Assembly (NCBI GenBank): GCA_012103255.1
Contig: WLXD01000001.1
Location: 682,001 to 746,000, forward strand
Source: Acidobacteriota bacterium
GTDB taxonomy: Bacteria > Acidobacteriota > UBA890 > WLXD01
Reading direction: 5' to 3'
Length of the DNA: 64,000 bases
Positions 32,625 to 56,027 of the stretch are shown here, one piece after another. A model generated the notes under the pieces. The model made no database searches. It saw nothing but the letters and a program-made list of their open reading frames with translations, and had not been told where the DNA came from. Both the position numbers and the translations under genes were made by a program. Each line of letters begins with the position of its first letter. The first letter of the stretch is position 1.

Positions 32625-33635
32625 TTGAATAGAAAACCGTCCAATCAGAATAGATCCAGCTACCTGCATTGGCTGATGGCCGTGGCCGTGGCCGTGGTTC
32701 TGCTCGCGTGGCTGCTGTCTGACATCGGCCTGGTCGCTGTCGGCGAGACCATTCGCGGCTCGTGGAAGCCCGGACTCCTCATGGGAGTCGCCGCATTCGG
32801 CGTGATGACCATCGGCCGGATCGCGCGCTACTGGGTTCTGCTCGAGAACAAGCCTCGCCTGGGACCGCTCACGCTGGTGACGTTGGTGCGCAACATGGCC
32901 GGCGACCTGCTTCCGACCCGGTTGGGCACGCTGGTCTACGTCTGGCTCGTCACCAAGCGACTTGGCGTCCCGGCCGACGACGCCTTTGCATCATTCTTCC
33001 TGGCCCTCGTTCTCGACATGGTCGCGATCGCCCCGATGCTTCTCGGTGCCGTTGTCGTGGTCGGCACCGGCTGGGAGTCCGCCGGTGCGATCGGCCTCTT
33101 GGCGGGCTCACTCCTCGCCGTCTCGATTATCTCGCTGTTCATGCTGGCCCCCGGGCTACGTCTCGCGGCCACCGTCAGCCGCATCGTACTCCCACGCGCG
33201 GAGAAGCTGGCTACCCTCGCGCTGGATACCGCTGCCCAGGTCGACGCCGTCGCAGCACGCGGCGCTCTCTGGCCAGCGATCGGCCTATCGTTCATCGTGC
33301 GAGCCGCCAAGTTCGGAGCGCACTACCTCGTACTGCAGTCCGTCCTGGTGCCGCTCGGCGTCGGCTGGGGCGAACTCGGCTTCTTCGAGTCGTTCCTGGG
33401 CGTTGCCGGAGCCGAACTCTCCTCGATGCTCCCCATTGCCGGCATCGGCGCTTTCGGCACCTGGGAAGCCGCCTTCGCCTTTGGCTTCAGCCAGCTCGGC
33501 CTCACCTTCGACCAGGCCGTCCTCGCCGGCTTCTCCACCCACATCCTCACCCAGCTCCACGACTACGGCCTCGGCGTTCTCGCCCTCATCGCCCTCTGGC
33601 GGCCCCGCTTCGCAGGGCGACCTTCGGGCTCATAA
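32625..33635 (+). CDS. UPF0104 / LPG-synthase-type membrane protein
   Basis: A 336-aa integral membrane protein with about eight hydrophobic segments, in the lysylphosphatidylglycerol synthase transmembrane (UPF0104) family. LVTLVRNMAGDLLPTRLGTLVYVW, AGAELSSMLPIAGIGAFGTWE and GFSTHILTQLHDYGLGVLALI fit the family. Such proteins are frequent in polysaccharide or lipid clusters; role unknown. Start TTG at 32625 has no good ribosome-binding site; ATG at 32676 is an alternative. Its last codons and stop lie inside the first tRNA-half repeat (from 33625), so the C-terminus may have been replaced by the island boundary. Confidence 0.8.
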   Translation: MNRKPSNQNRSSYLHWLMAVAVAVVLLAWLLSDIGLVAVGETIRGSWKPGLLMGVAAFGVMTIGRIARYWVLLENKPRLGPLTLVTLVRNMAGDLLPTRLGTLVYVWLVTKRLGVPADDAFASFFLALVLDMVAIAPMLLGAVVVVGTGWESAGAIGLLAGSLLAVSIISLFMLAPGLRLAATVSRIVLPRAEKLATLALDTAAQVDAVAARGALWPAIGLSFIVRAAKFGAHYLVLQSVLVPLGVGWGELGFFESFLGVAGAELSSMLPIAGIGAFGTWEAAFAFGFSQLGLTFDQAVLAGFSTHILTQLHDYGLGVLALIALWRPRFAGRPSGS

Positions 33636-33765
33636 CCCGAAGGTCACAGGTGACAGGTCGATGGCCGATACTTGAAGGGAGCCCGTCGTGACGGGATTGG
33701 CGGTTGCGGCGACGGTGACACGGTGACGCCGGAGCCGAACCGAGGTGCTCCCCGGGTGCTCGGGG
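33625..33765 (+). repeat. Island repeat A (initiator-tRNA anticodon arm plus tail)
   Basis: It begins CGGGCTCATAACCCG, an initiator-tRNA anticodon arm (stem CGGG/CCCG, loop CTCATAA with CAT anticodon). It continues with AAGGTCACAGGT, then the inverted repeat CCCGTCGTGACGGG at 33682-33695 and GGTGCTCCCCGGGTGCTCGG near 33745. The left, tRNA-Val-like part found in other copies is absent. This marks the left edge of the island. Confidence 0.75.
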
Positions 33766-35267: not shown

Positions 35268-35405
35268 GGAAGCTCCTTTGACGATCCTTGTCAGGAGTTG
35301 ATTCTGTTTGAACTTTGGCGGGATTCGGTTCGAAGCTAGTTGCTGCCGTCCGCGTCTGTTTGCCGCTGGATTGTCACAGGATTTGTCACAGGCCATCCTG
35401 GGGTG
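35268..35405 (+). promoter_or_regulatory. Conserved leader of RT copy 1
   Basis: This stretch matches the leader of RT copy 2 (52251-52389) almost base for base in blocks: CTCCTTTG, CGATCCTTGTCAGGA, TTGATTCTGTT, and GGATTGTCACAGGATTTGTC with the two TTGTCACA words. The homology ends shortly before the start codon in CTGGGGTG. It may contain the promoter, a structured RNA or the RT's own template; conservation outside coding sequence makes a function likely. Confidence 0.55.
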
Positions 35406-36353
35406 ATGATCGATCGAGTGGCCTCGGACGAAGTGATCGCCGCAGCGTTCGAGTGGCTGTGCAAGCGCCGTAAGAACTACCCTGCGCAGGCAGATGTCTG
35501 GGCATTGCGACACGACTGGGATAGGCAGCGGGCCCGCATCCAGACCGAGCTGCGCGCCAGCACCTATCGCCTCTCGTCCGTGCAGCGGATCACCACTCAC
35601 GAGGGCGAAACCCTGCACGTTTGGCGCGCCGCGGATGCACTGGTACTCAAGGCCCTGGCGATCGCGCTTCAGGACACGCTGCCGATCTCGCCGCGTTGCA
35701 CGCACGTCAAAGGCAATGGCGGTGCGCATGGAGCGATCGCGGCGGTCCGTGAGCAGTTGCCGCAGCATCGCTTCGTAGCGCGCACCGATGTGGCCGCGTA
35801 CTACGACTCAATCGACCACGAGCTACTGCTGCAACGGATCGAGAGGTTCGTGCCCGACCGCGCGGTGCTCAACCTGTTGGGGCAGTACCTGCGCTACACG
35901 GTGGAGTGGGGCGGCCTGTTCACAGACAACCGCACTGGCATCTGTCGGGGCTGCTCACTCAGCCCGCTGATCGGCGCGTTCTTTTTGGCGGAACTGGACC
36001 AGGCGTTGGAGCGGAAGGACGTCGACTACGTTCGCTTCATGGACGACATCGTCATCCTGGCACCGACCCGATGGAAGCTCCGGCGTGCGGTGAAGGCGAT
36101 GAACGAGGTGCTCGCCGATCTGGCCCTGGAGCAACATCCCGACAAGACATTCATCGGGAGAATCGAGCGCGGCTTCGAGTTCCTGGGCGTGCACTTCAGC
36201 CCAGCGGGATCACGGATCGCGGACTCAGCAATCGAGAGATTCGTGCAGCGGGCGGCCCGGCTTTATAAGCAAGAGCCTGACCCTGTCAGGCTTGGGCAGT
36301 ACTGTGCGCGGTGGGCCGCGAGTTGGCCGTCAACCAACCCGACTCGGAGCTAG
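35406..36353 (+). CDS. Reverse transcriptase, copy 1
   Basis: A 315-aa RNA-directed DNA polymerase. Visible RT motifs: RTDVAAYYDSIDHELLL (motif A with catalytic Asp), GICRGCSLSPLIGAFFLAELD split around RGCSLSP (motif B), YVRFMDDIVILAP (motif C, FMDD), and HPDKTFIGRIERGFEFLG. The N-terminal part holds WLCKRRKNYPAQADVWALR and CTHVKGNGGAHGAI. There is no maturase or endonuclease domain, and motif B is SP-type rather than the SQ-type of diversity-generating retroelement RTs. It resembles group-II-like or unclassified bacterial RTs. ATG 35406 was chosen because RT copy 2 is conserved from the same residue. The last ~9 residues (ASWPSTNPTRS) differ from copy 2. The antisense peptide gene begins 24 nt beyond its stop. 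Confidence 0.92.
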   Translation: MIDRVASDEVIAAAFEWLCKRRKNYPAQADVWALRHDWDRQRARIQTELRASTYRLSSVQRITTHEGETLHVWRAADALVLKALAIALQDTLPISPRCTHVKGNGGAHGAIAAVREQLPQHRFVARTDVAAYYDSIDHELLLQRIERFVPDRAVLNLLGQYLRYTVEWGGLFTDNRTGICRGCSLSPLIGAFFLAELDQALERKDVDYVRFMDDIVILAPTRWKLRRAVKAMNEVLADLALEQHPDKTFIGRIERGFEFLGVHFSPAGSRIADSAIERFVQRAARLYKQEPDPVRLGQYCARWAASWPSTNPTRS

Positions 36354-36377: not shown

Positions 36378-36599
36378 CTAGGACGCTCCTACGGCGTTCC
36401 CCGGACCGACCGACGGACGGTGACACACACCCGCCTCGCTTGTCGCCGTGCCTTTCCTCGGTGCGCCAAATACCATGTCTGCTTCGGTGCCCTTAAAGTT
36501 CTTGCCTGTCCCACAACCCCTCGTGTGCTGCGAGGACTCTAGTACGTGTAGGGCCGGCTGGGACCATTTTTTCTTGGGGGCTGTGTCGTCCTGTCTCAT
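36378..36599 (-). CDS. Small W-x-x-P peptide 1 (RiPP-precursor-like)
   Basis: A 73-aa peptide starting MRQDDTAPKKKWSQPALHVL and ending VGAS. GGAG lies 11 nt upstream. It shares with three other island peptides the core [KPR]-W-[SHK]-[QA]-P-x-[LV]-x-[VC]-[LI] and a C-terminal G-[AP]-S, while the middle differs (here HTRGCGTGKN and a second Cys). The motif recalls the YxxPxL recognition sequence in lasso-peptide leaders, but no maturation enzyme is nearby. Convergent with RT copy 1, 24 nt away. Confidence 0.6.
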   Translation of the reverse strand: MRQDDTAPKKKWSQPALHVLESSQHTRGCGTGKNFKGTEADMVFGAPRKGTATSEAGVCHRPSVGPGNAVGAS

Positions 36600-36913
36600 G
36601 AACTTTGATACTCCGGTAGCCACGCCACGGCGGTGATGGCAATGGCAGAGTGCATGATCCAAGTGTACCACCCGGTCTACGCGATGACGGGCGACCATGC
36701 ACCGGCTCTTTTGTTACAGCAGTCGGTGAGAACGGCGTTCCTGACTGGCCCCGCTACCGCGGTGCCGTCGATGCTCACAGAGATACCCTTGCTTCCCCTA
36801 GGACGCACTACCCTAGGCCGGATATGCTCGGCCCAGCAGGCGTGCTTCGCTCGCGCGGCGTCGGCCGTGAGCTCGGAGTTCTGCCTCTCGGTCGGTAGCA
36901 AGGGCGGAAAGGA
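36600..36913. other. Gap without a recognised gene
   Basis: 314 bp between peptide 1 and repeat B. It must contain the peptide 1 promoter on the minus strand, but I see no convincing hexamers. No similarity to the other island gaps was noticed. Confidence 0.35.
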
Positions 36914-37216
36914 GTCGGCGCGGGAGGAATCGACCCTCTACTTCCACCGTGTGCGGACCACTGTCCCGGGAGTGTGCGCCGGGTGCTCGCCGATGGACGT
37001 CTACGACCGCCCCATAGTCGTTCACGGCCCGTAACGTCAACGTTGTCAGTACCTTGCGACACGCGGCCCTCGGGCTCATAACCCGAAGGTCACAGGCGCC
37101 TGGTCGACGGTCGATACCCGACGGAAGGCCATCGTGACGGGATTGTCGGGTGCGGCGACAGCGACACGGAGCAGGCGGAGCTGCGCGAAGGTGCTCCCCG
37201 GGTGCTCGGGGTGCCG
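36914..37216. repeat. Island repeat B (complete composite repeat)
   Basis: The left part, GCGCGGGAGGAATCGACCCTC and CCACCGTGTGCGGA, is a tRNA-Val-like 3' half read on the minus strand. CGTAACGTCAACGTT follows in the body. CGGGCTCATAACCCG starts at 37071, 152 bp after the left motif's CGCGGGAGG, followed by GTCACAGG, CGTGACGGGATT and GGTGCTCCCCGGGTGCTCGG. Confidence 0.8.
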
Positions 37217-37940: not shown

Positions 37941-37958
37941 GGGTAACTCCTACAGGCT

Positions 37959-41100: not shown

Positions 41101-42133
41101 GGTGCCAGCCGTGCGCGTTGCGATTGCCGACGAGGGCCCGGGGATTGCCGAAAGCGAGCATGCGCATCTGTTCGAGCGCTTCTATCAGGTCGAAGCCAGC
41201 GACGACCGAACCTACGAGGGGGCGGGCATCGGGCTCGCCCTGGCGCAGGAACTGGTTGAGCTCCATGGCGGTGACATCGGCGTCGAGAGCGCCCCGGGCG
41301 AGGGCAGCACCTTCTGGTTCACGCTTCCCCTCGGACCCGACCACCTGAGTCCGGATCAGATCGAAATGGCGGCGGCTACGGACGACGTGGCGCCCGCCCC
41401 CGATCCCGCAGGCGACCAGGTAGAAGACCCGTCGCGACGCACGGTGCTTCTCGTGGAGGACCACACAGAGATGCTGGCGTACCTGGCCACCCATTTCGGC
41501 AGGTCGTATCGGACCCTGACCGCGGCCAACGGGAGGGAGGCGCTCCGCGTACTGAGCGACGAGTCGGTCGACGTGCTGGTATCCGACGTGATGATGCCGG
41601 AGCTGGACGGCCTGGCACTCTGCCGTCGCGTGCGCGCGGATTCCCGGCTCGGCGATTTGCCGATTGTTCTCGTAACCGCCAATGCCGGAGCGGCCTCGCG
41701 TGCGGATGGGCTTGAGTTGGCGAACGACTACGTTGTGAAACCGTTCCGCATGCCGGACCTTTTGGCGAGGGTGGCAATGCTGGCGGCCGGCGTTACCCAC
41801 TCGGCGGCAGCCGAGCAATCGGCACAGGATCGCGCCGCGTGCGAACGACTGCGCAAGGCCATTGCGGCCGGGCTTCACGCCGCTGACTTCGGCGTCGCCC
41901 ACCTCGCTCGATCACTCGCGCTCAGCGAGCGCCAGCTCTTCCGAACGACGCAGAGTCTCCTCGGTCGAACACCAGCAGAGCTCGTGCGGGAAGCGCGGAT
42001 GCTCGAAGCTCAGCGCCTGCTCCGCGAAGGGCTTGGACCCGCCGAGGTAGCAGCTCGTGTGGGCCTCAGTCGGAGCTACTTTTCGCGCGCCTACGCGGCC
42101 TGGTACGGACACCCGCCATCCGCGGAGAAATAG
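38132..42133 (+). CDS. Hybrid two-component system protein (propeller-kinase-receiver-AraC)
   Basis: A 1333-aa one-protein signalling system. A signal peptide (about 10-30) precedes two seven-bladed Reg_prop propellers (about 40-690; repeats such as GLPADVVTDLAVDAEGYLWV) and a Y_Y_Y domain. One membrane helix lies near residues 780-800. HisKA holds the phospho-His in FVANVSHELRTPLTLIAG (about 852), and the ATPase domain shows ISNLLSNALKFSPD, DEGPGIAE and GAGIGLALAQELV. The receiver has VLLVEDH, the Asp in VSDVMMPELDG (about 1150) and VVKPF. The C-terminus is an AraC-type HTH. It senses a periplasmic ligand, often a glycan, and directly regulates genes. ATG 38132 opens the signal peptide. Cargo between repeats C2 and D. 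Confidence 0.93.
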   Translation: MRTLAHLRRCLKLCWIVAVSLAGDLTVAAQVSLTPASEAGLAVQRWTALDGLPADVVTDLAVDAEGYLWVATFAGLVRFDGMEFELLTSANTPAFPSNRVVALDFDESGAMWILFELGVFVRFADGEFTRFGLAEGIDNPQTRIRFAGGDVWAFGEANLSRLEGDRFGDVALAMSGRVRDVLHRRNGDTCIAQGDAVTCGDFTAPYFAASTWVAALHEDGDERLWVATADQLLRQSDAGSFQAVRRFDGDSQWARIHEPVAGEIWVARFDGWTTYRPGPEFLNAGRALRRTRAVFSRDDGVWWVGSQGVFRDATPILATRGITAMEPDADGTIWIGSEEGLFAIRSPVFDSLAAADGLPGTNIYPIIESRSGLRWVGTWEAGLARWSEESVEAHAIESEGFGPGAISLYEDRLGRIWVGGYHGLCVVADDGPCLPHPEMGGLGGVRAILEDSAGRVWLGAARELWLREGGAWRRLDATGEVPHVWARTMLEAQDGSIYLGFNGGGVARYDGERFAWLNTSNGLSSNVVRDIVQLLDGTIWIATEDRGVCRLQPASAGDSAPGVVECLDASDGLPDDGIHRILADDSGRLWMSTNRGVFWARRDDLDRAMADADHSVTAVAYDETDGLPSSEANGGSQSAGVRLRDGRLAFPTQAGIAIVDPGRVELPETPPVRAVRLSVSGEPRPVPAGAATLQLAPDERDIELVWSAPSLTYASDIAFRYRLEGYDQSWSEPRRERRLSYTNLPPGALTLRVIAGLGGEWSDPGLVLNIYRRPLFVETPWFPAGLATVAVLVVATGLGFRARRLKQRQVELEATIDETTAELRERNKIISAQAARLGAVDELKSRFVANVSHELRTPLTLIAGPLADLEEEVRDPDMRRRIGVMLRNTERLRGLVDQLLDAQHLELGDLPLLARLREVPRFVEEIAARFEPQASGRALTVRRPSTGIAAYLDADKIEKVISNLLSNALKFSPDRTAIEISVEVVGHGDAVPAVRVAIADEGPGIAESEHAHLFERFYQVEASDDRTYEGAGIGLALAQELVELHGGDIGVESAPGEGSTFWFTLPLGPDHLSPDQIEMAAATDDVAPAPDPAGDQVEDPSRRTVLLVEDHTEMLAYLATHFGRSYRTLTAANGREALRVLSDESVDVLVSDVMMPELDGLALCRRVRADSRLGDLPIVLVTANAGAASRADGLELANDYVVKPFRMPDLLARVAMLAAGVTHSAAAEQSAQDRAACERLRKAIAAGLHAADFGVAHLARSLALSERQLFRTTQSLLGRTPAELVREARMLEAQRLLREGLGPAEVAARVGLSRSYFSRAYAAWYGHPPSAEK

Positions 42134-42390
42134 TCGCGGGAGGAATCGAACCTCCGACGTCCACCGTGTGAGGATTGCACTCACGCGGCACGAGCCAGGA
42201 AGGTGTTCGCAGACGACCGTTCGCGGCACGTCTGCAGCCGAACACGGCCCGCAACCTCAACGTTCCCAGCTACTTGCGGGCCGGCCAACGCGGGCCCATA
42301 ACCCGAAGGTCACAGGTTCGAGCATGTACTGCCCATACCCGCTCGAGCCCGTCGTGACGGGATTCGGGGTGCCGGCGACGGCGACACGCG
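42133..42390. repeat. Island repeat D (complete composite repeat)
   Basis: The left motif CGCGGGAGGAATCGAACCTC begins at 42135, two bases past the kinase stop. CGCAACCTCAACGTTCCCAG follows. The anticodon-arm motif CGGGCCCATAACCCG starts at 42291 (156 bp spacing), then AAGGTCACAGGTTCGAGC and CCCGTCGTGACGGG at 42348-42361. Confidence 0.8.
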
Positions 42391-42495
42391 CGCGCGTGCA
42401 CATCTCGCGACGCCCGCCGCATAGCCGTGCAGTCGAAAACCAGCCGTCGGTCTGGTTCTATCGGTGGAACTCTGGACACAACTTGAGGAGCCCAC

Positions 42496-43740: not shown

Positions 43741-43801
43741 GCCGGAGTTATCGGGGACGTGACATCGTCCGCCGTACCCTTCCCGCGCTACGCCCCTCAG
43801 C

Positions 43802-44854
43802 CTACCGAGCCCGAGGGAGCGGTCCAGGCTGCTCGCGCAAGAGATGGTCGCCCACCGGGAATATCTCTGTGACGGCGAAGAGGTTCGTGAGTTCCGAGTC
43901 CGGGAGCACAGAGTCGCTGTTGAAGAACACGCGGGTCACGATGCGGTCGCCGCCGGCCAGGCCTTTGGGGAGGGGAATCTCCTCAACCGTGAAGGGAGGC
44001 TCGTTGCGGCCGAAGGACCGCTTCAGGAGAATCTGGCGCGGACCGCCGGCGACTGGGTAGCGGGACACGACGATACGCAGGTGACCGCGCAGCCCGTCCG
44101 CGTTGGCAGACCCAAGAAACGCGTCGAAAAGGTAGAGCAGCGACTCCAGGAGTTCCGCGTCTGAAAACTTCGGAATGGACGTTTCAAGTTCGATCTCAAC
44201 ATCCGCGAGCGGCGTTCCAGGATCTAGCGCGTAGATGCTTTCTCGGCGGACCGCGGCGACATCAAAGGCCCGTGTGAATTTCTCTTTGAACCGCGCGATC
44301 GCTTGCTCGTGCCGTGGCGTTCCGTTGACCTCGGACGAGACAGCATGTCCGATCATGAAGATCTCGTCTCCCTCGCGCAGCGTGCGGCTCACGCCCATGA
44401 ACCGGTACTCGATCAAAAGGGTGTCGCCCCTGTCGATCTCCCCTGGGCGAAGTTCGAAGACAAAAAACCACCCGCTAGACGGGTCGCTGCCGATGAACTG
44501 CTCAATGCGACCTGATGTCGTGCGGAGCCTGGTGCGCTCGCCGCCCCGCACCCGCGTCAGGACCGCGCGTACACGACCGATCGCCGAGCCCGTGAAGGAC
44601 ACCTCGTTGAGCACCTCGGTAGACATCCAGGAATCGCTCAATTCCGGAAGCGGCAACTCCAGCACCGGCATCGTGTTTGCGAGCGCGATGGGGCCGTTGA
44701 CCTCGATCCGGTTCGCCCGCGTCAAGGTGAGCCGATCGAAGAGGAGGTCGAGATCGGCGTTGGCGTAGGCCAGTGCCTGGCCGACGGTCGACATGGCGGC
44801 CGCGAGGGCGAGAACGAAAGCAAGGGTTAGCTTGAGATTGCGGCCGATGGACAT
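43802..44854 (-). CDS. Secreted hypothetical protein, paralogue 1
   Basis: A 350-aa protein with a signal peptide (LTLAFVLALAAAMSTVGQALA). No known domain recognised. It is very similar throughout to the protein at 54791-55846: shared YANADLDLLFD, TRANRIEVNGPIALANTMPV, GDEIFMIGHA and RHEQAIARFKEKFTR. ATG 44854 with GGGAAGGA upstream opens the signal peptide. The longer frame to 45037 is spurious: its first residues translate the tRNA-like repeat. About 65 bp upstream are also conserved between the paralogues, so the promoter was probably duplicated too. Confidence 0.75.
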   Translation of the reverse strand: MSIGRNLKLTLAFVLALAAAMSTVGQALAYANADLDLLFDRLTLTRANRIEVNGPIALANTMPVLELPLPELSDSWMSTEVLNEVSFTGSAIGRVRAVLTRVRGGERTRLRTTSGRIEQFIGSDPSSGWFFVFELRPGEIDRGDTLLIEYRFMGVSRTLREGDEIFMIGHAVSSEVNGTPRHEQAIARFKEKFTRAFDVAAVRRESIYALDPGTPLADVEIELETSIPKFSDAELLESLLYLFDAFLGSANADGLRGHLRIVVSRYPVAGGPRQILLKRSFGRNEPPFTVEEIPLPKGLAGGDRIVTRVFFNSDSVLPDSELTNLFAVTEIFPVGDHLLREQPGPLPRAR

Positions 44855-45003
44855 GTGTCCTTCCCCATTTGTGGGCGAGTCGTCATGATGCGCGTCCCAG
44901 CCTACTACCGACGGAACCACGGCGGCCCTGGGGTTCACGGGCGTGCGACCGCATACACCACCGTAGCAAGCCCGACCGATCGCTGGCTGCGGCCAAGTCC
45001 GAG

Positions 45004-45300
45004 TGGGCGCGGGCGGAATTGAACCGCCGACTTCCATCGTGGGCGGAGGGCGCCGTGTGGGCGACTTACAGGGTGCTCGTCAGTGGTCGTTTGAGCCTCG
45101 CTCATAGCGGGTCACGGGACGTAGCGTCAGCGTTCCCAGCTACTTGCACGACCTTGTTCGCGGGCTCATAACCCGACGGTCATGGGTGCCTGATCGATGG
45201 TCGCTACCCGAAGGGAGCCCGCCGTGACGGGATTCTGGGGGCGCGGCGACGGCTACACGGGGCGAGTGGATTGGCGCGAGGGTGCTCCCCGGGTGCTCAA
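45004..45300. repeat. Island repeat E (complete composite repeat, compensated T-stem)
   Basis: The left motif begins GTGGGCGCGGGCGGAATTG; on the minus strand its T-arm reads GGCGG-TTCAATT-CCGCC, where both stem sides differ from the usual GGAGG/CCTCC but still pair. CAGCGTTCCCAGCTACTTGC follows, then CGGGCTCATAACCCG at 45161 (153 bp spacing), CCCGCCGTGACGGG at 45218-45231 and GGTGCTCCCCGGGTGCTC up to 45299. Confidence 0.8.
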
Positions 45301-45317
45301 GGTGACTCGCGCGACGC

Positions 45318-45380
45318 GCAGCCCGGCTTTATGAGCAAGAGCCTGACGGAGTCGGGCTAGGGCAGTCCGCGACGGCGTAG
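45318..45380 (+). pseudogene. Reverse transcriptase remnant, copy 3
   Basis: In-frame codons read AARLYEQEPDGVGLGQSATA and stop (TAG 45378-45380). This matches the end of the conserved part of RT copies 1 (RLYKQEPDPVRLGQ) and 2 (RLYEQEPDGVRLGQ). Everything upstream of it is replaced by repeat E. The antisense peptide 3 gene begins 23 nt downstream, as beside RT copy 1. Confidence 0.75.
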
Positions 45381-45403: not shown

Positions 45404-45616
45404 CTACGAGGCGCCTACCACGCCGGGGCCCTGCGTCGTGCAGGGTACGCTCGTCTCACTGGCGCCGACCACCTTGTTCATGGTGGTGCCGTGGCCCTCC
45501 GCGGTGGCAGCCCCGCCTCCACCTCCCGACGTGACTCCCCCAACCCGGGCCGGGAGAATACATGTCAGTACGGGGGCCTTCCACCTGCTGGACCGCGGGC
45601 CGTCCGGCTTTTCCAT
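45404..45616 (-). CDS. Small W-x-x-P peptide 3 (RiPP-precursor-like)
   Basis: A 70-aa peptide starting MEKPDGPRSSRWKAPVLTCI and ending VVGAS. A Gly-rich stretch (GGVTSGGGGGAATAEGHG) and a single C-terminal Cys mark the variable middle. ATG 45616 has AGGGA nine bases upstream; an ATG three codons earlier is possible. It shares the W-x-x-P-x-L core and the G-A-S ending with the other three peptides. Convergent with the RT remnant. Confidence 0.58.
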   Translation of the reverse strand: MEKPDGPRSSRWKAPVLTCILPARVGGVTSGGGGGAATAEGHGTTMNKVVGASETSVPCTTQGPGVVGAS

Positions 45617-45776
45617 ATGTGCCATTCCCTACATCTCTTGGCTAGGTTCCATCTGGCGGTTCCCGGAGACGGGCTGACGATGGAGTCTGTATCGCAAGCG
45701 TCCAACCCTCAACCCTGGGAGACATCTACTCTATCGGCAGGTCTCGCCTTCCCTGCGTCCCGCCCCCGTCGTGCGT

Positions 45777-46121: not shown

Positions 46122-46183
46122 CTATCCCACGGCGCCCACAAACGCCTAAGTCCTGAGAGCCGTCAGTTGGGGCGAGTGAGAGT

Positions 46184-46385
46184 GGGCGCGGGAGGAATCG
46201 AGCCCCCGACTTCCACCGTGTGTGGATAGCCCTCACGTGGAGCGAACCGAGAGGGTGTTCGCTGATGAATCGATAGCGGCACGTCCGTAGCTGTTCACGG
46301 CTCGTAACGCCAACGTTCCCAATTATTTGCGCTGTCGTGTCCACGGGCTCATAAACCGAGGGCTACGGCTGCCCGAGTTCTGTTC
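46184..46385. repeat. Island repeat F (left part, body and worn arm)
   Basis: GTGGGCGCGGGAGGAATCGA opens the left motif; its T-stem is GGGGG/CCTCC on the minus strand. CGTAACGCCAACGTTCCCA follows. The arm reads CGGGCTCATAAACCG at 46344 (157 bp spacing), with a damaged stem. The tail elements of other copies are absent. Confidence 0.7.
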
Positions 46386-46484
46386 CCGTTCGTACGAGGG
46401 GCTAGTTGGGCCTTGGGGCCGTCACTGGATTCTCAGTGGCGCCTATTGGTGACTCGTCATCGACCCAATAGGCTGTGTCCCACC

Positions 46485-48014
46485 ATGGAACCCGGGACTC
46501 GGCTAGGCCCCTACGAGATCCAGAGCCAGCTCGGCGCTGGCGGGATGGGAGAGGTCTATCTCGCCCAGGACGCGCGGCTCGGCAGGCAGGTCGCGATCAA
46601 GGTGCTCCCCGAGGAGTACGCGACTGACCCCGAGCGACTGGCGCGCTTCGAGCAGGAGGCGCGCGCGGCGGCGGCGCTCAATCACCCGAACATCGCGATC
46701 GTCCACGACGTTGGGGAGTCCGAAGGGACGCACTTCATCGTCCAGGAGCTACTCGAGGGCCGCTCGCTCCGCGAGGAGTTAGCCGATTCGCAGCTGAAGT
46801 TGGAGCGGGCCCTGGCGCTCGGCGCGGAGGTGGCCGCGGGGCTGGCGGGCGCCCATGAGGCAGGGATCGTCCATCGGGATTTGAAGCCGGACAACATCTT
46901 CGTGACTCCCGGTGGGAACGCAAAGGTGCTCGCCTTCGGGCTCGCCAAACTCACCGAGGCGGCGGCCGGCCCTGACAGCGGCAGTATGTCGCCGACCGCG
47001 TTGGGCACGAGCGCGGGGCAGGTGATGGGCACGGCGGGCTACATGTCACCCGAGCAAGTGGATGGCTCCGACGTCGACCGGCGGGCCGATGTGTTTGCGC
47101 TCGGATGCGTGCTCTATGAGATGGTGGCGGGTCGGCGCGCGTTCGCTGGCAAGAGCCTGATCGATACGCTTCACGCAATCGCTCGTGAGGAGCCGACCTC
47201 CCTGCTCGAACTCGAGCCCCGACTACCGGTCGAGCTGCAACGAATCGCGGGCAAGTGTCTGGAGAAAGACCCGGCCGATCGCTACCAGCACGTCGGCGAG
47301 ACGGCCGCTGATCTGCGAGCGCTCGCCAACGAGGTTCGCGCCGGCACCGCCCTGAGCGGGTTGGCCGCACGAGGCACGTCGCCTAGTCGGGGCCGGCTTG
47401 TGGACGGCGGGCTCGGGGCGGCGCTGGGCCTGGTCGCTGGACTTCTCGGCGCGGCGCTCTGGCTGTCGAGTGCGCCCGACGGGTCGCAGAGAGTGGCTCG
47501 TCGGCTCCAGCTGCCCCTACCGTCCGACCTGGTGTCCGTCGGCGGATTCGACTCGGAACCCGTCTTCTCGCCCGACAGTCAGAAGCTGGTCTTCGGCGGG
47601 CGCACTGCGGAAACGCAGCCGGCGCTCTGGGTGCGAGAGATCGACACCGGCAACACCTATCGACTGGAGGGGACCGAGGACGCCAGGTACCCGTTCTTCT
47701 CCCCGGATGGCCGGTGGCAATGTTCGACGACGGCGCCCTCTACAAGATGTCGCTGGCGGCGGGCGTACGCGAGCGGATCATTTCGGTCGCCGATGGGGGC
47801 GGCGGCGCCTGGTCGCCCGACGGCCAATCCCTCTACTTTGCGGGAATCCCGGCGGGCGGGGCGCTGGGGCTGCACCGCGTGCCGGCCGACGGCGGCGAGC
47901 AGGAGGAGGTCTGGACTCCTTCGGAACAGGACAACGCCACGACTGTGCGTGCGCCTAGGTTCATGCCGGGCGGAGAGGGCATCGTGTTCAGCATCTTCGG
48001 CGCACCGGCCATGA
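46485..48014 (+). pseudogene. Ser/Thr kinase-propeller protein 1, N-terminal part, likely inactive
   Basis: Eukaryotic-type kinase (residues ~10-280) with LGAGGMGEVYLAQD, Lys39 in VAIKVLP and HRDLKPDN (His130). The DFG motif reads LAFGLA: Ala150 replaces the Mg-binding Asp, so catalysis is doubtful. A membrane helix (LGAALGLVAGLLGAALWL) and the start of a PD40 propeller follow. The frame breaks after FFSPDGRW at about 47713; the family continuation, VAMFDDGALY, is in another frame. One lost G, or a lost GTGG, explains this. ORF residues after that point are frameshift product. ATG 46485 opens the standard N-terminus. Cargo between repeats F and G. Confidence 0.8.
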
Positions 48015-49141: not shown

Positions 49142-49195
49142 GTACCCTGTCGCGCGGTACGTCGGAGCCCTCTTGGGGCAGCGCGTGGACAGGGA

Positions 49196-49450
49196 GTGGG
49201 CGCTGGAGCAATCGAACCACCGACTCCACCGTTTGACGACGGCACATCCCGGCTGAACGTTCTCCGTAGGTTCTCGCGGGTGATGGTTCGCGGCGCGTTC
49301 ATGATCGATCATGGCTCGCAACGTCAACGTTCGCAGATGCCTGCAGGACGGTCGGCGCGGGCTCATAACCCGAAGGTCACAGGTTCAAATCCTGTCCCCG
49401 CTACTCCGTGCGCTCCCGTCGTGACGCACTTCCGGCGCGGGCACGGGGGC
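49196..49450. repeat. Island repeat G (with the best-preserved initiator-tRNA 3' half)
   Basis: The left motif is worn (CGCTGGAGCAATCGAACCAC). CGCAACGTCAACGTT follows. From 49358 to 49404 lies an initiator-tRNA 3' half with anticodon arm CGGG-CTCATAA-CCCG, variable loop, T-arm ACAGG-TTCAAAT-CCTGT and acceptor strand CCCCGCTAC; spacing from the left motif is 157 bp. No 5' half is present, so it is not a tRNA gene. A degenerate CCCGTCGTGACG follows. Confidence 0.8.
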
Positions 49451-49516
49451 TTCGGCGTCGCAGAGCCGCTTGGCGACGGTTCGTCAGAGCACGTCGAAAC
49501 ACGTAGGCTTGCGCGC

Positions 49517-51934
49517 ATGGAATCGGGAAGCAGGATCGGCGCATACGAGATTGAAGGCCGACTCGGTGCAGGCGGAATGGGCGAGGTCTATCGGGCGCGC
49601 GATACCGGACTCGACAGGTCGGTGGCGCTGAAGATGTTGCCCGACGAGTTCGCCGACGACTCGGAGCGACTCGCTCGCTTCGAGCAGGAGGCGCGCGCAC
49701 TCGCAGCGCTCAATCACCCCAACATCGCGCAGGTCTATGGCCTTGAACGCGCGGATGCCACCGTCATTGCGATGGAGTTGGTCGAGGGGGAGGACCTGAC
49801 GGCCTGTGTCGAACGCGGGCCACTTCAAGTCGATGAATTGCTGCCCCTGGCACGGCAGATTGCCGAGGCCCTGGAGGCGGCACATGAAGCCGGGATCGTC
49901 CACCGCGACCTGAAGCCGGCGAATATCCGTGTCCGGCCCGACGGTGTCGTGAAGGTGCTCGATTTCGGCCTTGCCAAGTCCGGTGCGGCAGTCGCCGGCG
50001 CGGAGGGGAGCGCGGACTCTCCCACGATCGCCTCGCCCGCGGTCACAGGAGTCGGCGTGATCATGGGAACCGCCGCCTACATGGCCCCGGAGCAGGCGCG
50101 AGGTAAACCGGTGGACCGCCGTGCCGACGTCTGGGCCTTCGGTTGCGTGCTCTTCGAGATGCTGTCGGGGCGCCGTGCGTTCGACGGCGACGACGTGTCG
50201 ATGACGCTGGCGTCGGTGCTCAAACATGATCTCGACTGGTCGCTCCTGCCAGACAGCACGCCCGCATCGTTGCGGCGCATGATCGAGCGCTGCCTCGAGA
50301 CCGAGCCGCGACGTCGCTACCAGTCGATCGGCGATGCGCGCGTGGAGATCGAGAACTGGATCGACGAGGGCTTCGCTCCTGTCGATCCGAGCGAACTCGT
50401 GATCCGCGCTGGCGACGCCGCGTTAGCGCGCCCAGGCGTGACCGCTCGCGTCGCGGCCGGTGTCGTGCTGGCCTCGCTAGCCGCTGTAGTCGCCTGGTGG
50501 GCGAAACCTGCTCCCGAGTCGCCGCTCCGTGTCCTACGGCTCGACGCGGGCTCGCTGGCCAAGGTCCAGGGTGCGAACGATGCGAGCGAGGCGCAGGTGC
50601 TGCCCGACGGATCTGCCGTGGTGGTGCGGGCCGCCTCCGAGGTCTGGGTACACCCGATGGACGGGTCGGAGCCGCGCTTGCTGGCCGACGGCGTCAACGG
50701 GTTCGCGCTCTCGCCTGACGGTGCTGAGGTGCTGATCTACACGGGACACACCCACACGCGCGTTGCCCTCGCGACCGGAAGTTCATCGCTTGTGAGCGAA
50801 ACCGGCTACTACAGTTCATACGGCATGCACTGGTCCCCGTCCGGCCCCGTGTTGTTCAGCCGAGGCGGACGCACGGGGCTGCGGTCGCTGGATCCCGTGA
50901 CCGGAGTCGAAACGCAGGTTCTGGAGCTCGGACCGAGCGACACACGCTTCATCACACCCCATGCGCTTCCGAACGGCGACGTGATGTTCTCTGTGCGCTC
51001 CCGGGGACGCGTCGAGGTGTTCGACGGGCAGACGCGGCACGTGGTCCTTGATGCCGCAGATGCCACCGTCGAGGAGGCGCTGTACACCCGAGACGGCGTG
51101 CTCCTCTGGGCCCAGTGGGGGGCGAACGAGGGGACCTGGTCGGCGTCCTATTCGCTCGAATCCCGGTCCTTGGCCGGAGAGTCGCACCGTATCTCGCCGG
51201 TCGCCGGGACCCTCAGCGTTTCCGACAATGGCCTGCTCGTGATCACACCGCGCGCCGCCCGCGGGAACCGGACGACGCAGACCATCCTGGTGGACCGCTC
51301 GGGCGACCTGGTGCGCGAGTTGGTGGGCCCGCAGGCCGTAGTGAGGAGCCTGCGAATATCGCCCGATGGCCGACGACTGGCCATGCAGCAGCAGTTGCCG
51401 GGGGCGGGCGACATGGGCGTCGTTGTGTACGACCTGGAGCGTGGCACCAGCGTTGAACTCCGCGCTGGCGCCGCCGGCGGCAACCCGGTCTGGCCCGAGT
51501 GGCTTCAGGACAGCGCGGGCATAGTCTTTATCGCGGGCCCGGACGAGGACCGCGGCCTGTACATGAAGGACGGCCCTGGGAGTGCAACCCGCACGCTCGT
51601 GTCCGGCGGCGTAGAGAACGAGCAGATCTCGGTCTCCGCGGACGGTCGCACCGTCGTGTACGGCGGCACCGACGGCAATCTCTGGTACGTCGATACGTCC
51701 GGGGGCGACCCGGTCCGGTTCCGCGACACCGAAGACGAGGAACGACTTCCCTCGCTGTCGCCCGATGGACGGGCCATCGTGTTCAGTCGAACTTCGATGG
51801 TGGGAACTTCGGGACTCTTCATCGAGCGGTTCCCTGAGGGCGGCGGCGTGCTGCCGCTGGAGACCACGGTCTGGGACTCGCCGCGGTGGAGTCGAGACGG
51901 TACGAGATCTTCTACAGCGCCCGCGGCTTTGTGA
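49517..51934 (+). CDS. Ser/Thr kinase-propeller protein 2, frameshifted near its end
   Basis: A membrane Ser/Thr kinase with complete motifs: LGAGGMGEVYRARD, Lys39 in VALKMLP, HRDLKPAN, VLDFGLAK and MAPEQARG. A membrane helix (AAGVVLASLAAVVAWW) near residue 320 separates it from an extracytoplasmic PD40-type propeller (FALSPDGAEVLIYTG, LRISPDGRRLAMQ, PSLSPDGRAIVFSR). The frame is lost after SPRWSRDG at 51900; the next ten residues are frameshift product and the family end lies in the next feature. ATG 49517 opens the conserved N-terminus; the longer frame to 49196 translates repeat G. The kinase itself should be active. Confidence 0.85.
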   Translation: MESGSRIGAYEIEGRLGAGGMGEVYRARDTGLDRSVALKMLPDEFADDSERLARFEQEARALAALNHPNIAQVYGLERADATVIAMELVEGEDLTACVERGPLQVDELLPLARQIAEALEAAHEAGIVHRDLKPANIRVRPDGVVKVLDFGLAKSGAAVAGAEGSADSPTIASPAVTGVGVIMGTAAYMAPEQARGKPVDRRADVWAFGCVLFEMLSGRRAFDGDDVSMTLASVLKHDLDWSLLPDSTPASLRRMIERCLETEPRRRYQSIGDARVEIENWIDEGFAPVDPSELVIRAGDAALARPGVTARVAAGVVLASLAAVVAWWAKPAPESPLRVLRLDAGSLAKVQGANDASEAQVLPDGSAVVVRAASEVWVHPMDGSEPRLLADGVNGFALSPDGAEVLIYTGHTHTRVALATGSSSLVSETGYYSSYGMHWSPSGPVLFSRGGRTGLRSLDPVTGVETQVLELGPSDTRFITPHALPNGDVMFSVRSRGRVEVFDGQTRHVVLDAADATVEEALYTRDGVLLWAQWGANEGTWSASYSLESRSLAGESHRISPVAGTLSVSDNGLLVITPRAARGNRTTQTILVDRSGDLVRELVGPQAVVRSLRISPDGRRLAMQQQLPGAGDMGVVVYDLERGTSVELRAGAAGGNPVWPEWLQDSAGIVFIAGPDEDRGLYMKDGPGSATRTLVSGGVENEQISVSADGRTVVYGGTDGNLWYVDTSGGDPVRFRDTEDEERLPSLSPDGRAIVFSRTSMVGTSGLFIERFPEGGGVLPLETTVWDSPRWSRDGTRSSTAPAAL

Positions 51935-52137: not shown

Positions 52138-52199
52138 AGGGCAGCCGATTCCGTATCGCGACGCGACGCGACGCGTAAGCCTCGCCTTGCGGCAGGCCG

Positions 52200-52248
52200 A
52201 ACAAGAGTGGGCGCGGGAGGAATCGAACCTCCGACTTCCACCGTGTGC
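52200..52248 (-). repeat. Island repeat H: 49-nt direct repeat left of RT copy 2
   Basis: Exact match of 49 nt to 53913-53961. On the minus strand it holds the tRNA-Val-like 3' half: ACACGGTGGAAG, T-arm GGAGG-TTCGATT-CCTCC and acceptor strand CGCGCCCAC. Three bases after it the conserved leader of RT copy 2 begins. Confidence 0.85.
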
Positions 52249-52250
52249 AG

Positions 52251-52389
52251 ATGGAACTCCTTTGCCGATCCTTGTCAGGAATTGATTCTGTTCGAGCTTT
52301 GGTGGGATGCGTTTTGACGCCAGTTGCTCCTAGTTGCCGCTGTTTGACGCCGGATTGTCACAGGATTTGTCACACGTCATGCTGGGGTG
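52251..52389 (+). promoter_or_regulatory. Conserved leader of RT copy 2
   Basis: It aligns with the leader of RT copy 1 (35268-35405) with conserved blocks CTCCTTTG, CGATCCTTGTCAGGA, TTGATTCTGTT and the paired TTGTCACA words before CTGGGGTG. It starts immediately after the 49-nt direct repeat, which defines the left end of the mobile unit better than copy 1 does. Confidence 0.55.
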
Positions 52390-53640
52390 ATGATCGACAC
52401 AGTCGCCTCGGACAAAGTCATCGACGCAGCCTTCGCCTGGCTGTGCAAGCGGCGGCAGGGCTATCCGCCGCGAGCCGACGTCTGGGCGTTGCGGCACGAC
52501 TGGGTCCGGCAACGGGCCCGCATTCAGGCCGAACTGCGCGCAGGGAGCTACCGGCTCGCGTCGGTGCAGCGGATCATCACCCAGGCTGGCGAGGTGCTGC
52601 ACGTGTGGCGGGCCGCCGATGCGCTGGTGCTCAAGGCACTGACGATTGTGTTGGAGCAGCAGTTGCCGATCTCGGACCGCTGTACTCACGTCAAGGGCAA
52701 CGGAGGTGCGCACGGAGCGGTTGCCGCGATCCGGGAGCGTCTATCGGAGCACCGTTTCGTGGCGCGTACGGATGTCGCCGCCTACTACGACTCGATTGAC
52801 CACGAGCGACTCCTCGACCTGTTGGAGCGGCAAGTTGAGGACGGCCCGGTGATGAACCTGCTGGGCCAGTATCTGCGCTACACGGTCGAGCAGGGCGGCT
52901 TGTTCGCCGACAATCGCGCCGGCATCTGCCGGGGCTGTTCGCTCAGCCCACTGATGGGCGCGTTCTTCCTGGCGCAACTGGACGGGGCGCTGGAGCAAGA
53001 GAAGGTGTTCTGCGTCCGGTTCATGGACGACATCGTCATCCTGGCATCGACCCGCTGGAAGCTACGGAAGGCGGTTCGGGCGATGAACGAGGTTCTCGCG
53101 AGCCTGGGGTTGAAGCAGCACCCCGACAAGACGTTCATCGGGAGGATCGAGCGCGGCTTCGAGTTCCTCGGCGTGCATTTCAGCCCGGAAGGAACGAGGA
53201 TCGCAGCAGCGTCGGTCGAAAGATTTGTGCAGCGTGCAACCCGGCTTTATGAGCAAGAGCCTGACGGCGTCAGACTTGGGCAGTACTGCGCGCGATGGGC
53301 TGGCTGGGCGAAGGCTGAGGGGCGGGACGATCAGGGATTTAACGCTAGGGCGCCACCGGGGGGGCGGGGGCAACAGTACGGCAGAGCCGAGGCACGGGTG
53401 GGGGAACCACCGAAGGGTAGGAAGGCGGGGCCGCCGGGGCGATGGGGGGCCGTCAGGAGACGGGGAGGGAGGGGGCGGCTCGGGGGCCTAATGGGCCGGC
53501 GGTGGAGCTGGTTACTAATAACTGAAGGTGGGGGGGCTTCCAGCTCTTTTTTTCAGTCATTTTCGTTAACTAACACCCCTTTCATGCTGTTGGCTGATCG
53601 CCAACCCCGAGAACTGTACAGCCTGCGGGGTGCGAACTAG
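52390..53640 (+). CDS. Reverse transcriptase, copy 2
   Basis: Close paralogue of the RT at 35406: RTDVAAYYDSIDHERLLDLL, GICRGCSLSPLMGAFFLAQL, CVRFMDDIVILA and HPDKTFIGRIERGFEFLG are all present. Similarity covers about the first 310 residues, up to GQYCARWAGW. The remaining ~105 residues (Gly/Arg-rich, then LLITEGGG...SLRGAN) have no counterpart in copy 1 and probably represent read-through into flanking G-rich sequence. ATG 52390 corresponds to the copy 1 start; GTG 52387 is possible. No maturase or endonuclease domain. Confidence 0.9.
   Translation: MIDTVASDKVIDAAFAWLCKRRQGYPPRADVWALRHDWVRQRARIQAELRAGSYRLASVQRIITQAGEVLHVWRAADALVLKALTIVLEQQLPISDRCTHVKGNGGAHGAVAAIRERLSEHRFVARTDVAAYYDSIDHERLLDLLERQVEDGPVMNLLGQYLRYTVEQGGLFADNRAGICRGCSLSPLMGAFFLAQLDGALEQEKVFCVRFMDDIVILASTRWKLRKAVRAMNEVLASLGLKQHPDKTFIGRIERGFEFLGVHFSPEGTRIAAASVERFVQRATRLYEQEPDGVRLGQYCARWAGWAKAEGRDDQGFNARAPPGGRGQQYGRAEARVGEPPKGRKAGPPGRWGAVRRRGGRGRLGGLMGRRWSWLLITEGGGASSSFFQSFSLTNTPFMLLADRQPRELYSLRGAN
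53335..53570 (+). other. Strongly G-rich tract followed by T-run
   Basis: Directly after the conserved end of RT copy 2 the plus strand is exceptionally G-rich, with more than a dozen runs of three or more G up to 53550. It is followed by GAAG and CTTC around a G7 run and CTCTTTTTTTCAG at about 53545-53560. It could be a structured RNA end, quadruplex-forming DNA, a terminator, or a poorly resolved assembly stretch. Confidence 0.5.
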
Positions 53641-53912
53641 TAATTGGTAGCGCCGACCATGATGATGGCGGGCATATGATGCTGCACGGGCAGCCGAAGT
53701 GCGGAGTGGGGGTAGTGCGTCGATTTCTTTGCTAGCAGGGAAGGCCCGAGGTCCTAGGGTTGTTTCCTGCGCCAAGGAAGGCGGAAGGGGCAGTACTAGG
53801 ACGTTACCTAGAACCCAAGGACCTCCGGGATGCACCCAGCCAGTCCCCGCGAGACGTTGCTAGGCGGTGGCGACCTTCTTGTGCGCGTTCACGTATTTGG
53901 CAGCGATCGCCA
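53571..53912. other. Gap without a recognised gene
   Basis: About 340 bp between the end of RT copy 2 and repeat I. Frames on both strands look random, and no W-x-x-P peptide is found here, unlike the place right after RT copy 1 and the RT remnant. Confidence 0.35.
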
Positions 53913-54035
53913 AACAAGAGTGGGCGCGGGAGGAATCGAACCTCCGACTTCCACCGTGTGCGGACAGCACTCACGGAGCGAACCGGAAAGTGTTCGCCTA
54001 TGATCCACGGCGGCACGTCCACAGCCGATCACGGG
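53913..54035. repeat. Island repeat I: 49-nt direct repeat right of RT copy 2, plus body
   Basis: The first 49 nt equal 52200-52248 exactly. The copy then continues with the body of the composite repeat (CGGACAGCACTCACGGAGCG, AGTGTTCGCC, CGGCACGTCCACAGCCGATC) and stops in a run of G near 54035. The initiator-tRNA arm is missing. Confidence 0.8.
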
Positions 54036-54122: not shown

Positions 54123-54347
54123 CTACGAAGGGCCCGGCGGACTGTCGTAGAGGATGTAAACGTAGGCTGGGTTGAAGGGCGTGGCTCTCCTGATCGCGTG
54201 GGGAATCGCCACCTGCCGAATGTAGCGGTTGCCGCCACCCGTCTCGGCCCAACTCGTCATCGGGCCTCCTCCCGCGGTGCACTCGGTTCCGTCAGAGATC
54301 ACGAAGACTGTGGGCTGTGACCAGGGACGGCTTGATTTCTGCGCCAC
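54123..54347 (-). CDS. Small W-x-x-P peptide 4 (RiPP-precursor-like)
   Basis: A 74-aa peptide starting MAQKSSRPWSQPTVFVISDG and ending PPGPS. GTG start at 54347, with AAGGAG seven bases upstream, the best ribosome-binding site of the four. It carries the shared W-x-x-P core, a Gly-rich part (CTAGGGP, ETGGGNRY) and a tyrosine-rich end (PAYVYILYD). One Cys. It lies 88 bp beyond repeat I. Maturation genes are absent. Confidence 0.62.
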   Translation of the reverse strand: MAQKSSRPWSQPTVFVISDGTECTAGGGPMTSWAETGGGNRYIRQVAIPHAIRRATPFNPAYVYILYDSPPGPS

Positions 54348-54790
54348 GACTCTTCTCCTTGTCCAATAGGAGGCTCGATTCTATACGGCGCTCCTGTTGC
54401 TCACGCTGGCAAAGCGTTCACTGCGTTCCAGACGACGAGTCCCCATATCTTCCCGTGCTTCAGTGTCGCGCATCGGCGGAGTCCCCATCCTTCAGGGTCT
54501 CCTGAGAGGCGCTGGCCTGCTCCGACACGAGCGCCCTCGGGCAGCGCAGTGTCTGCGCGACGGGTTTCTCGCGCGAGATGCCTCGCGATCACGGAGACTG
54601 ATTCGTGCCTGTTTGGCGGCGATTGGCAGTCGGCAATCGCTGCCAAGATGCTAGGCAGCTGACGTTACGAGACTTGCGAGTCGCCCCGGGGTGCTCAGAG
54701 TGCCGCCCGGCTCCTCTAGCCAGTCGAACACGGAAGGTGATGCGCACCCGGATCGCCCAGGGCGGGTGCGGCGGGAGAAAGCGGGTCCGC
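54348..54790. other. Gap with a hairpin after the secreted-protein gene
   Basis: 443 bp between peptide 4 and the secreted protein, right of the island. CGCACCCG and CGGGTGCG (54743-54770) form an 8-bp stem; CGGGTCCGC (54782-54790) pairs with GCGGACCCG (54826-54834), the latter inside the gene's last codons. Both could end the minus-strand transcript. No gene recognised. Confidence 0.4.
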
Positions 54791-55846
54791 TTACCGAACT
54801 CCGGGGAGTGTTCCGGACTGCGTGAGCGGACCCGACAAGTCGCCCACCGGGAATATCTCTGCAGCGGTGATGAGGTTGGTGAATTCCGAGTCGGGAACGA
54901 CGTAGTCACTGTTGAAGAAAACGTGGGTCACGATCCGATCGCCGCCCGCGAGGCCTTTGGGGAGGGGGATCTCCTCGAACGCGAAGGGTTGCTCGTTGCG
55001 GCCGAAGGCACGCTTGAGAAGAATCTGCCGCGGACCGCCGGCGGCTGGGTAGCGGGACACGACGATACGTAGATGACCGCGCGGCCCTTCCGCGCTGGCC
55101 GACGCAAGAAACGCGCCGAACGTGTAGGGCAGCGACTCTACGAGTTCCGCGTCGGAAAACCGTGGAATGGACGTCTCAAGCTCGATCTCAACGTCCGCGA
55201 GCGGCGTTCCAGCCGCTAGCCCGTAGACGCTTTGTCGGTAGACCGAGGCGACATCAAAGGTCCGTGTGAACTTCTCTTTGAACCGCGCGATCGCTTGTTC
55301 GTGCCGTGGCGCTCCGTTGATCTCGCCCGACGCTGCGTGCCCGATCATGAAGATCTCGTCTCCCTCGCGAAGCGTGCGGCTCACGCCCGGGAACCGGTAC
55401 TCGATCAAGAGTGTGTCGCCGCTGTCGATCTCCCCTGGGAGAAGTTGGAAGGCGAAAGACCGCCCGCTGGCCGGGTCGCTGCCAATGAACTGCTGAAGGC
55501 GACCCGATGTTGTGCGGAGCCTGGTGCGCTCACCACCACGCACGCGTGTCAGGATCGCGCGCACGCGACCGGTCGCCGAGCCCGAGAAGCTCACCTCATT
55601 GAGCACCTCGGTAGACGTCCAAGAATCGCTCAGTTCGGCAAGAGGCAACTCCAGTACCGGCATCGTATTTGCGAGCGCGATCGGGCCGTTCACCTCGATC
55701 CGGTTCGCCCGCGTCACGTTGAGCAGGTCGAAGAGGAGGTCGAGATCGGCGTTGGCGTAGGCCAGCCCCGGACCCGCGGTCGACATGGCGGCCGCGAAGG
55801 TGAGCACGAAAGCACAGGTTCGCCTGAAACTGTGGCCGGTCGACAT
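54791..55846 (-). CDS. Secreted hypothetical protein, paralogue 2
   Basis: A 351-aa protein with a signal peptide (CAFVLTFAAAMSTAGPGLA), near-identical in layout to the protein at 43802-44854 and differing by scattered substitutions and a divergent tail (SGPLTQSGTLPGVR). Conserved parts include ANADLDLLFD, TRANRIEVNGPIALANTMPV and LPKGLAGGDRIVT. No known domain recognised. ATG 55846 opens the signal peptide; the longer frame to 56041 overlaps the divergent promoter. One copy lies outside the island and the other inside, about 11 kb apart in the same orientation. Confidence 0.75.
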   Translation of the reverse strand: MSTGHSFRRTCAFVLTFAAAMSTAGPGLAYANADLDLLFDLLNVTRANRIEVNGPIALANTMPVLELPLAELSDSWTSTEVLNEVSFSGSATGRVRAILTRVRGGERTRLRTTSGRLQQFIGSDPASGRSFAFQLLPGEIDSGDTLLIEYRFPGVSRTLREGDEIFMIGHAASGEINGAPRHEQAIARFKEKFTRTFDVASVYRQSVYGLAAGTPLADVEIELETSIPRFSDAELVESLPYTFGAFLASASAEGPRGHLRIVVSRYPAAGGPRQILLKRAFGRNEQPFAFEEIPLPKGLAGGDRIVTHVFFNSDYVVPDSEFTNLITAAEIFPVGDLSGPLTQSGTLPGVR

Positions 55847-56027
55847 GTGTTGCTCCGATTGTTGCGAGTCGTCGCGATGCGCGTCGGCCAGCCTACTACC
55901 CCGGGGACTACGACGACAGGTTTCGAATTCTGTCACTGCACGACGACGCTCGCGCGAACCGGATTTGCCAGATGCGAGCGCTGTAGACTGGCGTGGTCTG
56001 GCCGCTCTCGCACCCACCGGAACCCGA

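Follow-up and report, generated by a model that had tools for sequence, protein, structure and literature searches.

The 64,000-nucleotide stretch of acidobacterial DNA analysed here (the window) holds a reverse transcriptase (RT) gene between two identical direct repeats that resemble the end of tRNA-Val, which raises the question of whether these repeats record reverse transcription into a target or the integration of a DNA element carrying the RT. We put at roughly 70% the probability of the reading developed below, in which the 49-nt repeats would be attachment sites derived from tRNA-Val(CAC), at the two ends of a DNA cassette of 1.7 kb inserted by site-specific recombination. The unit and its boundaries are as follows.

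52196..52259, minus strand: left repeat copy, antisense tRNA-Val(CAC) 3' half, exact part 52200-52248, leader directly after
52253..52371, plus strand: leader or end module, about 119 nt, ending GGATTGTCACAGGATTTGTC
52387..53320, plus strand: UG4 reverse transcriptase copy 2 (RT2), motif FMDD, PADLOC RT_UG4 1.5e-118
53453..53560, minus strand: small peptide ORF convergent with RT2, MTEKKSWKPPHLQLL..., Pro-rich, in-frame stop at its end
53909..53972, minus strand: right repeat copy, antisense tRNA-Val 3' half, exact part 53913-53961

Positions 52200-52248 and 53913-53961 are identical over 49 nt, exactly where an earlier note on this DNA had placed them; similarity extends at 92% over a wider 64 nt (52196-52259 and 53909-53972), the copies stand 1713 bp apart from start to start, and a 33-nt core of the repeat (up to 3 mismatches) is present at four places in the window, whereas shuffles predict 0.00. 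The tRNA-Val-like label given to them also holds, with both repeats antisense to the 3' half of the real host tRNA-Val(CAC) gene (G000:C4:316454-316527), which the left copy matches at 96% over 55 nt (tRNA positions 22-76). The array of such sequences in the window is not adjacent to the intact tRNA-Val gene; ARAGORN detected no intact tRNA in the window, and Rfam gave no matches in its 33-57 kb region. Both repeats possess the gene's own downstream CTC and lack the CCA of a mature tRNA, and were therefore not copied from mature tRNA. Their flank type (CTCTTGTT) is that of two sister species introduced below, whereas the host's own tRNA-Val gene is flanked by CTCCTACT, a hint that they came from somewhere other than the present tRNA-Val locus.

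As previously described, the left repeat passes directly into the RT leader, and the right repeat runs on into a composite repeat body, here truncated and reaching to about 54034. One correction is required, in that the left repeat and leader together form a conserved junction (90% over 182 nt in the sister species G001). The proposal that exactness indicates a recent event is not supported: exactness is weak evidence of age because a conserved tRNA core is the source of both repeats and identity is in any case a requirement of recombination. Identity this exact would fit a young insertion, given that the older copies in the array show 63-83% similarity to the left repeat. Assignment of the RT to the UG4 class reflects a full-domain match to PDLC03779 (393-396 bits, next-best profile 140-142 bits). 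The “G-rich tail” noted after the RT is real by composition (G 38-58% in 60-nt bins of 53251-53550) but is antisense to the small Pro-rich ORF at 53453..53560, which accounts for it; on the RT strand, through which the RT2 open frame continues to 53640, the tail has no relative. The content of the RT2 unit is an RT and a small peptide ORF, with no integrase gene inside.

Evidence on how such units insert came from G001 and G002, two sister species of the same genus as the window host. In G002, the tRNA-Val gene contains a single 43-nt core (CACACGG...CCCACTC) followed by TTGTTTGGCCTGAACTC, constituting an empty site. In G001, the tRNA-Val gene is intact and is followed by a 589-bp insert, a second 43-nt core and the same downstream sequence (cores at 99 and 688 of L149), with outer flanks 96.5% (142 nt) and 95.4% (608 nt) identical to those of G002. 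The duplicated 43 nt extend from the anticodon loop to a few nucleotides past the tRNA 3' end; a span from anticodon loop to 3' end is the classic integrase layout, the ‘A’ subsite (PMC4383910; PMC8371274). The G001 insert carries a leader 87% identical to that of RT2 over 122 nt, and its cargo is a SnoaL-like gene (PF12680, 1.5e-14), with neither RT nor integrase. Conservation of the leader does not depend on the sequence behind it and holds for four copies, those of RT1, RT2, a solo copy on contig C7 and this RT-less unit; since the same leader accompanies a SnoaL-like cargo in place of an RT, it represents a cargo-independent end module. The single-copy empty site that insertion implies was accordingly found at tRNA-Val for a sister unit, but none was found for RT2 itself, and this one filled/empty pair concerns an RT-less unit. 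Nor was one found for RT3, whose radical-SAM neighbour, through which it was sought, is a gene absent from the same-genus genomes.

Composite modules, which combine an antisense tRNA-Val 3' half, a spacer of about 100 nt and a tRNA-fMet 3' half in sense orientation (the better copies also include the terminator that lies behind the fMet gene), start at 53909 (a truncated copy without its fMet half) and at the first five positions listed here.

36901..37213, unstranded: composite module with Val half, spacer, fMet half and terminator
42126..42398, unstranded: composite module
44992..45304, unstranded: composite module
46171..46376, unstranded: composite module, fMet part partial
49185..49446, unstranded: composite module, nearest to real tRNA-fMet
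33617..33765, plus strand: fMet half of a composite module, without Val half

Within the host genome these modules occur in this array only, where they separate cargo genes including a two-component regulator, kinases and a 6-bladed propeller. When the RT2 flanks are joined through one 49-nt copy, they yield an ordinary Val-plus-spacer module that aligns with the five others. The earlier suggestion of insertion into a pre-existing composite thus gains from the restored module and from the leader unit inserted at tRNA-Val, albeit with no empty site for RT2. Two further duplications were observed in the array: a minus-strand gene with no Pfam match at 43797-44924 and 54786-55915 (84% DNA identity), near composite modules, and tandem paralogous kinase genes at 46180-47342 and 49194-50379 (64% DNA identity), duplicated with the preceding composite module. 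In the L183:1970-2960 region of G002 (contig C18), a tiny peptide gene is enclosed by two copies of the tRNA-fMet 3' half and its terminator, spaced 870 nt from each other; here a second tRNA is employed in the same way as tRNA-Val.

From these observations, a cassette would comprise one tRNA-Val 3' half, the end module of about 119 nt and cargo (here the UG4 RT and a convergent small peptide gene), and would insert by conservative site-specific recombination inside the tRNA 3' half, its target being the real gene for tRNA-Val or else a tRNA-like end that the composite array already contained. The catalyst would most likely be a tyrosine integrase supplied in trans. With such enzymes, the 7-bp overlap corresponds to the anticodon loop of the tRNA gene (PMC8371274), and the gene is made whole again by a tRNA fragment that the island brings along (PMC4383910). 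Outside the core, the unit end continues to resemble the tRNA anticodon arm, at 10 of 12 positions in RT2 and 9 of 12 in G001 (P=9.5e-5 and 3.7e-4, respectively, against random 12-mers of the window), as would be expected of an attP and not of a target-site duplication. Because of the core layout, this mimic, the CTC and the cargo-independent leader, we interpret the repeats as probable attachment-site halves and the RT as cargo. We infer that a tyrosine integrase performs the insertion, that RT2 came by the same route into a composite module already present, and that the RT plays no part in movement. Four tyrosine recombinases are encoded in the host genome, and a candidate phage-type integrase of 449 aa lies 100 kb upstream on the same contig (PF00589, 9e-19); it has no link to these sites, and no integrase was found in or beside any unit. 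This missing integrase counts against the attachment-site reading, as do the single filled/empty pair and the position of the window array away from an intact tRNA-Val. In addition, the unit departs from the tRNA at two bases immediately 5' of the identity block (TT against TG/GG), and the left copy is unrecognisable in RT1 and short in RT3 and the C7 solo leader.

The host genome contains three UG4 RT copies and one solo leader; those besides RT2, together with an RT remnant in the window, are as follows.

35268..36353, plus strand: RT1, leader and UG4 RT, without a clear left tRNA-like copy
C1:1183228-1184220: RT3
45304..45366, plus strand: solo RT 3'-end remnant, 81% to RT1, beside a composite module

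The DNA of RT1 and RT3 is 85% identical from the leader onwards until homology stops within their tRNA-Val-like ends; the first 280 aligned bases are identical and the next 200 or so about 90%. RT3 retains a 16-nt left tRNA-Val fragment (AACCTCCGACTTCCAC) before a shortened leader, the shortening of which looks like an internal deletion rather than a 5' end, and about 11 nt of the left copy remain at the C7 solo leader. Solo UG4 RT 3' ends occur in several hosts, at 45304-45366 of the window, L147:13494-13596, L054:7177-7281, L049:1583-1734, L047:238-451 and L043:2105-2728, some after a leader-like motif, and G002 also possesses an RT remnant. A conserved RNA hairpin at the RT 3' end, striking by eye, was not significant against other RTs (p=0.21 and 0.14).

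These copies bear on the alternative raised in the earlier note, targeting by reverse transcription, in which a UG4 RT acting in cis or in trans would reverse-transcribe RNA of the unit into a tRNA-Val-like target opened by a nick, the 43-49 nt target-site duplications then resulting from staggered nicking. Such duplication would produce the same architecture, and three units do possess RTs, but the duplicate is exactly the tRNA integrase core, the anticodon-arm mimic is kept past it, and neither an A-tract nor a 5' truncation series was seen. While the shortened RT3 leader and the arrest of RT1/RT3 homology within the tRNA-like end might be ascribed to this process, the former looks internal, and the full leader is present in an RT-less unit (though an RT could act in trans). 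With an end module that moves without an RT in cis, CTC in place of CCA and a core in integrase layout, we regard target-primed reverse transcription as unlikely and the earlier suggestion as disfavoured. Homologous recombination or segmental duplication, whereby RT2 would have arrived through crossover between tRNA-like modules already spread and the repeats need not mark one insertion, is likewise improbable: it leaves unexplained both the precise G001 insertion at a real tRNA and the leader with different cargo at the same tRNA position, despite the many tRNA-Val-like copies in the array, the other array duplications (43797-44924/54786-55915, 84%; kinase genes, 64%) and the run of 280 identical bases followed by about 90% in RT1/RT3, a sign of exchange between copies. 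A SINE/LINE-like pairing, with composite tRNA repeats as non-autonomous retroposons spread by the UG4 RT, would suit the tRNA-derived ends and the RT remnants, of which one adjoins a module (45304-45366) and another lies in G002, but is very improbable given the low copy number (modules in one array, three RTs, one solo leader) and modules that hold gene-flanking DNA (trailer, terminator) instead of mature tRNA.

Returning to the cassette and its cargo, the ORF convergent with RT2 belongs to a family of small peptides, of which the window contains further members.

54126..54344, minus strand: peptide ORF, KSSRPWSQPTVFVI...GPS, HMM seed
36378..36599, minus strand: peptide ORF convergent with RT1, MRQDDTAPKKKWSQPALHVL...GPGNAVGAS, E=0.009
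45404..45625, minus strand: peptide ORF beside the RT-end remnant, ...SRWKAPVLTC...GPGVVGAS
37713-37949, minus strand: further family member

Outside the window, members were identified at L007:2938-3195, L147:13638-13985, L150:7280-7519 and 10439-10714, L148:816-1079 and L183:2368-2559. A profile built from three peptides not adjoining RTs was searched over 7490 six-frame ORFs, and 6 of its 14 further matches fell in stretches after RT, RT-end or leader copies (hypergeometric 2.4e-7). A K(K/R)xWxxPxLxVL motif close to the N-terminus is common to the peptides, most of which have GPGNAGAS or QGPS as their C-terminus. Relatives follow every RT, RT-end and leader copy examined in the genus, and are convergent with the RT except at the C7 solo leader. 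The RT2 peptide is the weakest family member, its profile match (E=2.4) being weak alone, with place and motif as in the other copies. Lasso-peptide precursors were considered and rejected, the weak likeness to their leaders falling below cut-off throughout (NF033534, E=0.02; NF033524, E=0.1-0.4).

Comparison of UG4 RT loci across lineages suggested a second feature of their cargo. In four pairs of copies from four lineages, the two members are 85-100% identical as far as roughly the RT 3' end, about 30-60% identical across the adjoining cargo end, and more alike again farther on; identity goes from 95% to about 45% to 88% in RT1/RT3, 100% to about 30-60% to 100% in Luminiphilus, about 90% to 39-58% to over 90% in Budvicia, and about 95% to about 40% to over 90% in a Salmonella plasmid pair. 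The variable Luminiphilus end lies in the DUF1554 domain of a convergent surface protein; in L. syltensis (L054:3801-7300 versus L055:3761-6950), the RT and N-terminal part are identical and the RT-proximal DUF1554 end is variable. Among the proteins encoded beside UG4 RTs are inverse autotransporters, PEP-CTERM proteins and proteins with invasin domains, and fimbrial neighbours have been reported for 66% (PMC4244168, PMC8934634). The association of UG4 RTs with hypervariable cargo ends is a correlation, and allele recombination would also give the pattern. Tentatively, and with considerable doubt, UG4 RTs might constitute a second, non-DGR diversification system driving replacement of the RT-proximal end of an adjoining secreted or surface gene, in which case the small peptide family might be the cargo in the window genus and the tRNA-bounded cassette its vehicle. 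A convergent neighbour is not established as a rule for all UG4 RTs (14 of 29 versus 10 of 29 other RTs, p=0.21), flanking direct repeats at other UG4 RTs are clear in few loci only (L052, L057; 58-nt motifs in L054), and a comparison of E. coli strains for hypervariability gave one near match only. A 2014 survey placed UG4 in Proteobacteria only (PMC4244168); we also observed UG4-like RTs in Nitrospirales and Brocadiaceae MAGs (L053, L076), outside Proteobacteria. Poorly understood UG4 RTs gain a concrete context, an adjoining variable secreted-product gene, and their function becomes testable.

Among known systems, Islander tRNA islands resemble the G001 locus in combining an intact tRNA, a displaced 3' fragment in direct orientation and a one-copy empty site (G002), and are alike in an element with its own tRNA fragment and an identity block that starts at a known crossover subsite, the anticodon loop. 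They differ in that the present units measure 0.59-1.71 kb without an integrase inside, and that RT2 lies between two fragments and not beside an intact tRNA. Islander discards candidates smaller than 2 kb or lacking an integrase (PMC4383910), and the present analysis documents such sub-2-kb, integrase-less tRNA cassettes, which standard island finders discard. Additive flexible genomic islands contain recurring tRNA 3' ends, the last 20 nt of tRNA-Lys (PMC10872708), and are likewise arrays of cargo genes with tRNA-end repeats; here, however, antisense Val and sense fMet halves are fused in one module and the RT cassette possesses its own end module. Tycheposons, which are tRNA-bordered, span 4-200 kb and encode a tyrosine recombinase (PMC10872708), are similarly tRNA-anchored and cargo-carrying, in contrast to units of 1.7 kb and 0.6 kb with no recombinase inside. 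Integron gene cassettes are defined by attC sites and IntI; the sites here are tRNA halves. Diversity-generating retroelements share an RT beside a hypervariable secreted-protein end, but were rejected given the UG4 class, substitutions in the RT1/RT3 tail and L054/L055 cargo that are not adenine-specific, and no template/variable repeat pair seen. Relative to other UG4 RTs, the family match is clear, and the tRNA-bounded cassette and convergent small peptide gene differ. The structure indicates that direct repeats of a tRNA 3' end flanking a bacterial RT can represent sites of DNA attachment and not signs of retrotransposition. It is best read as a small cassette of DNA that is anchored at tRNA sequences and has a UG4 RT and a convergent peptide gene as its cargo, a variation on the integration at tRNA sites that is already known.
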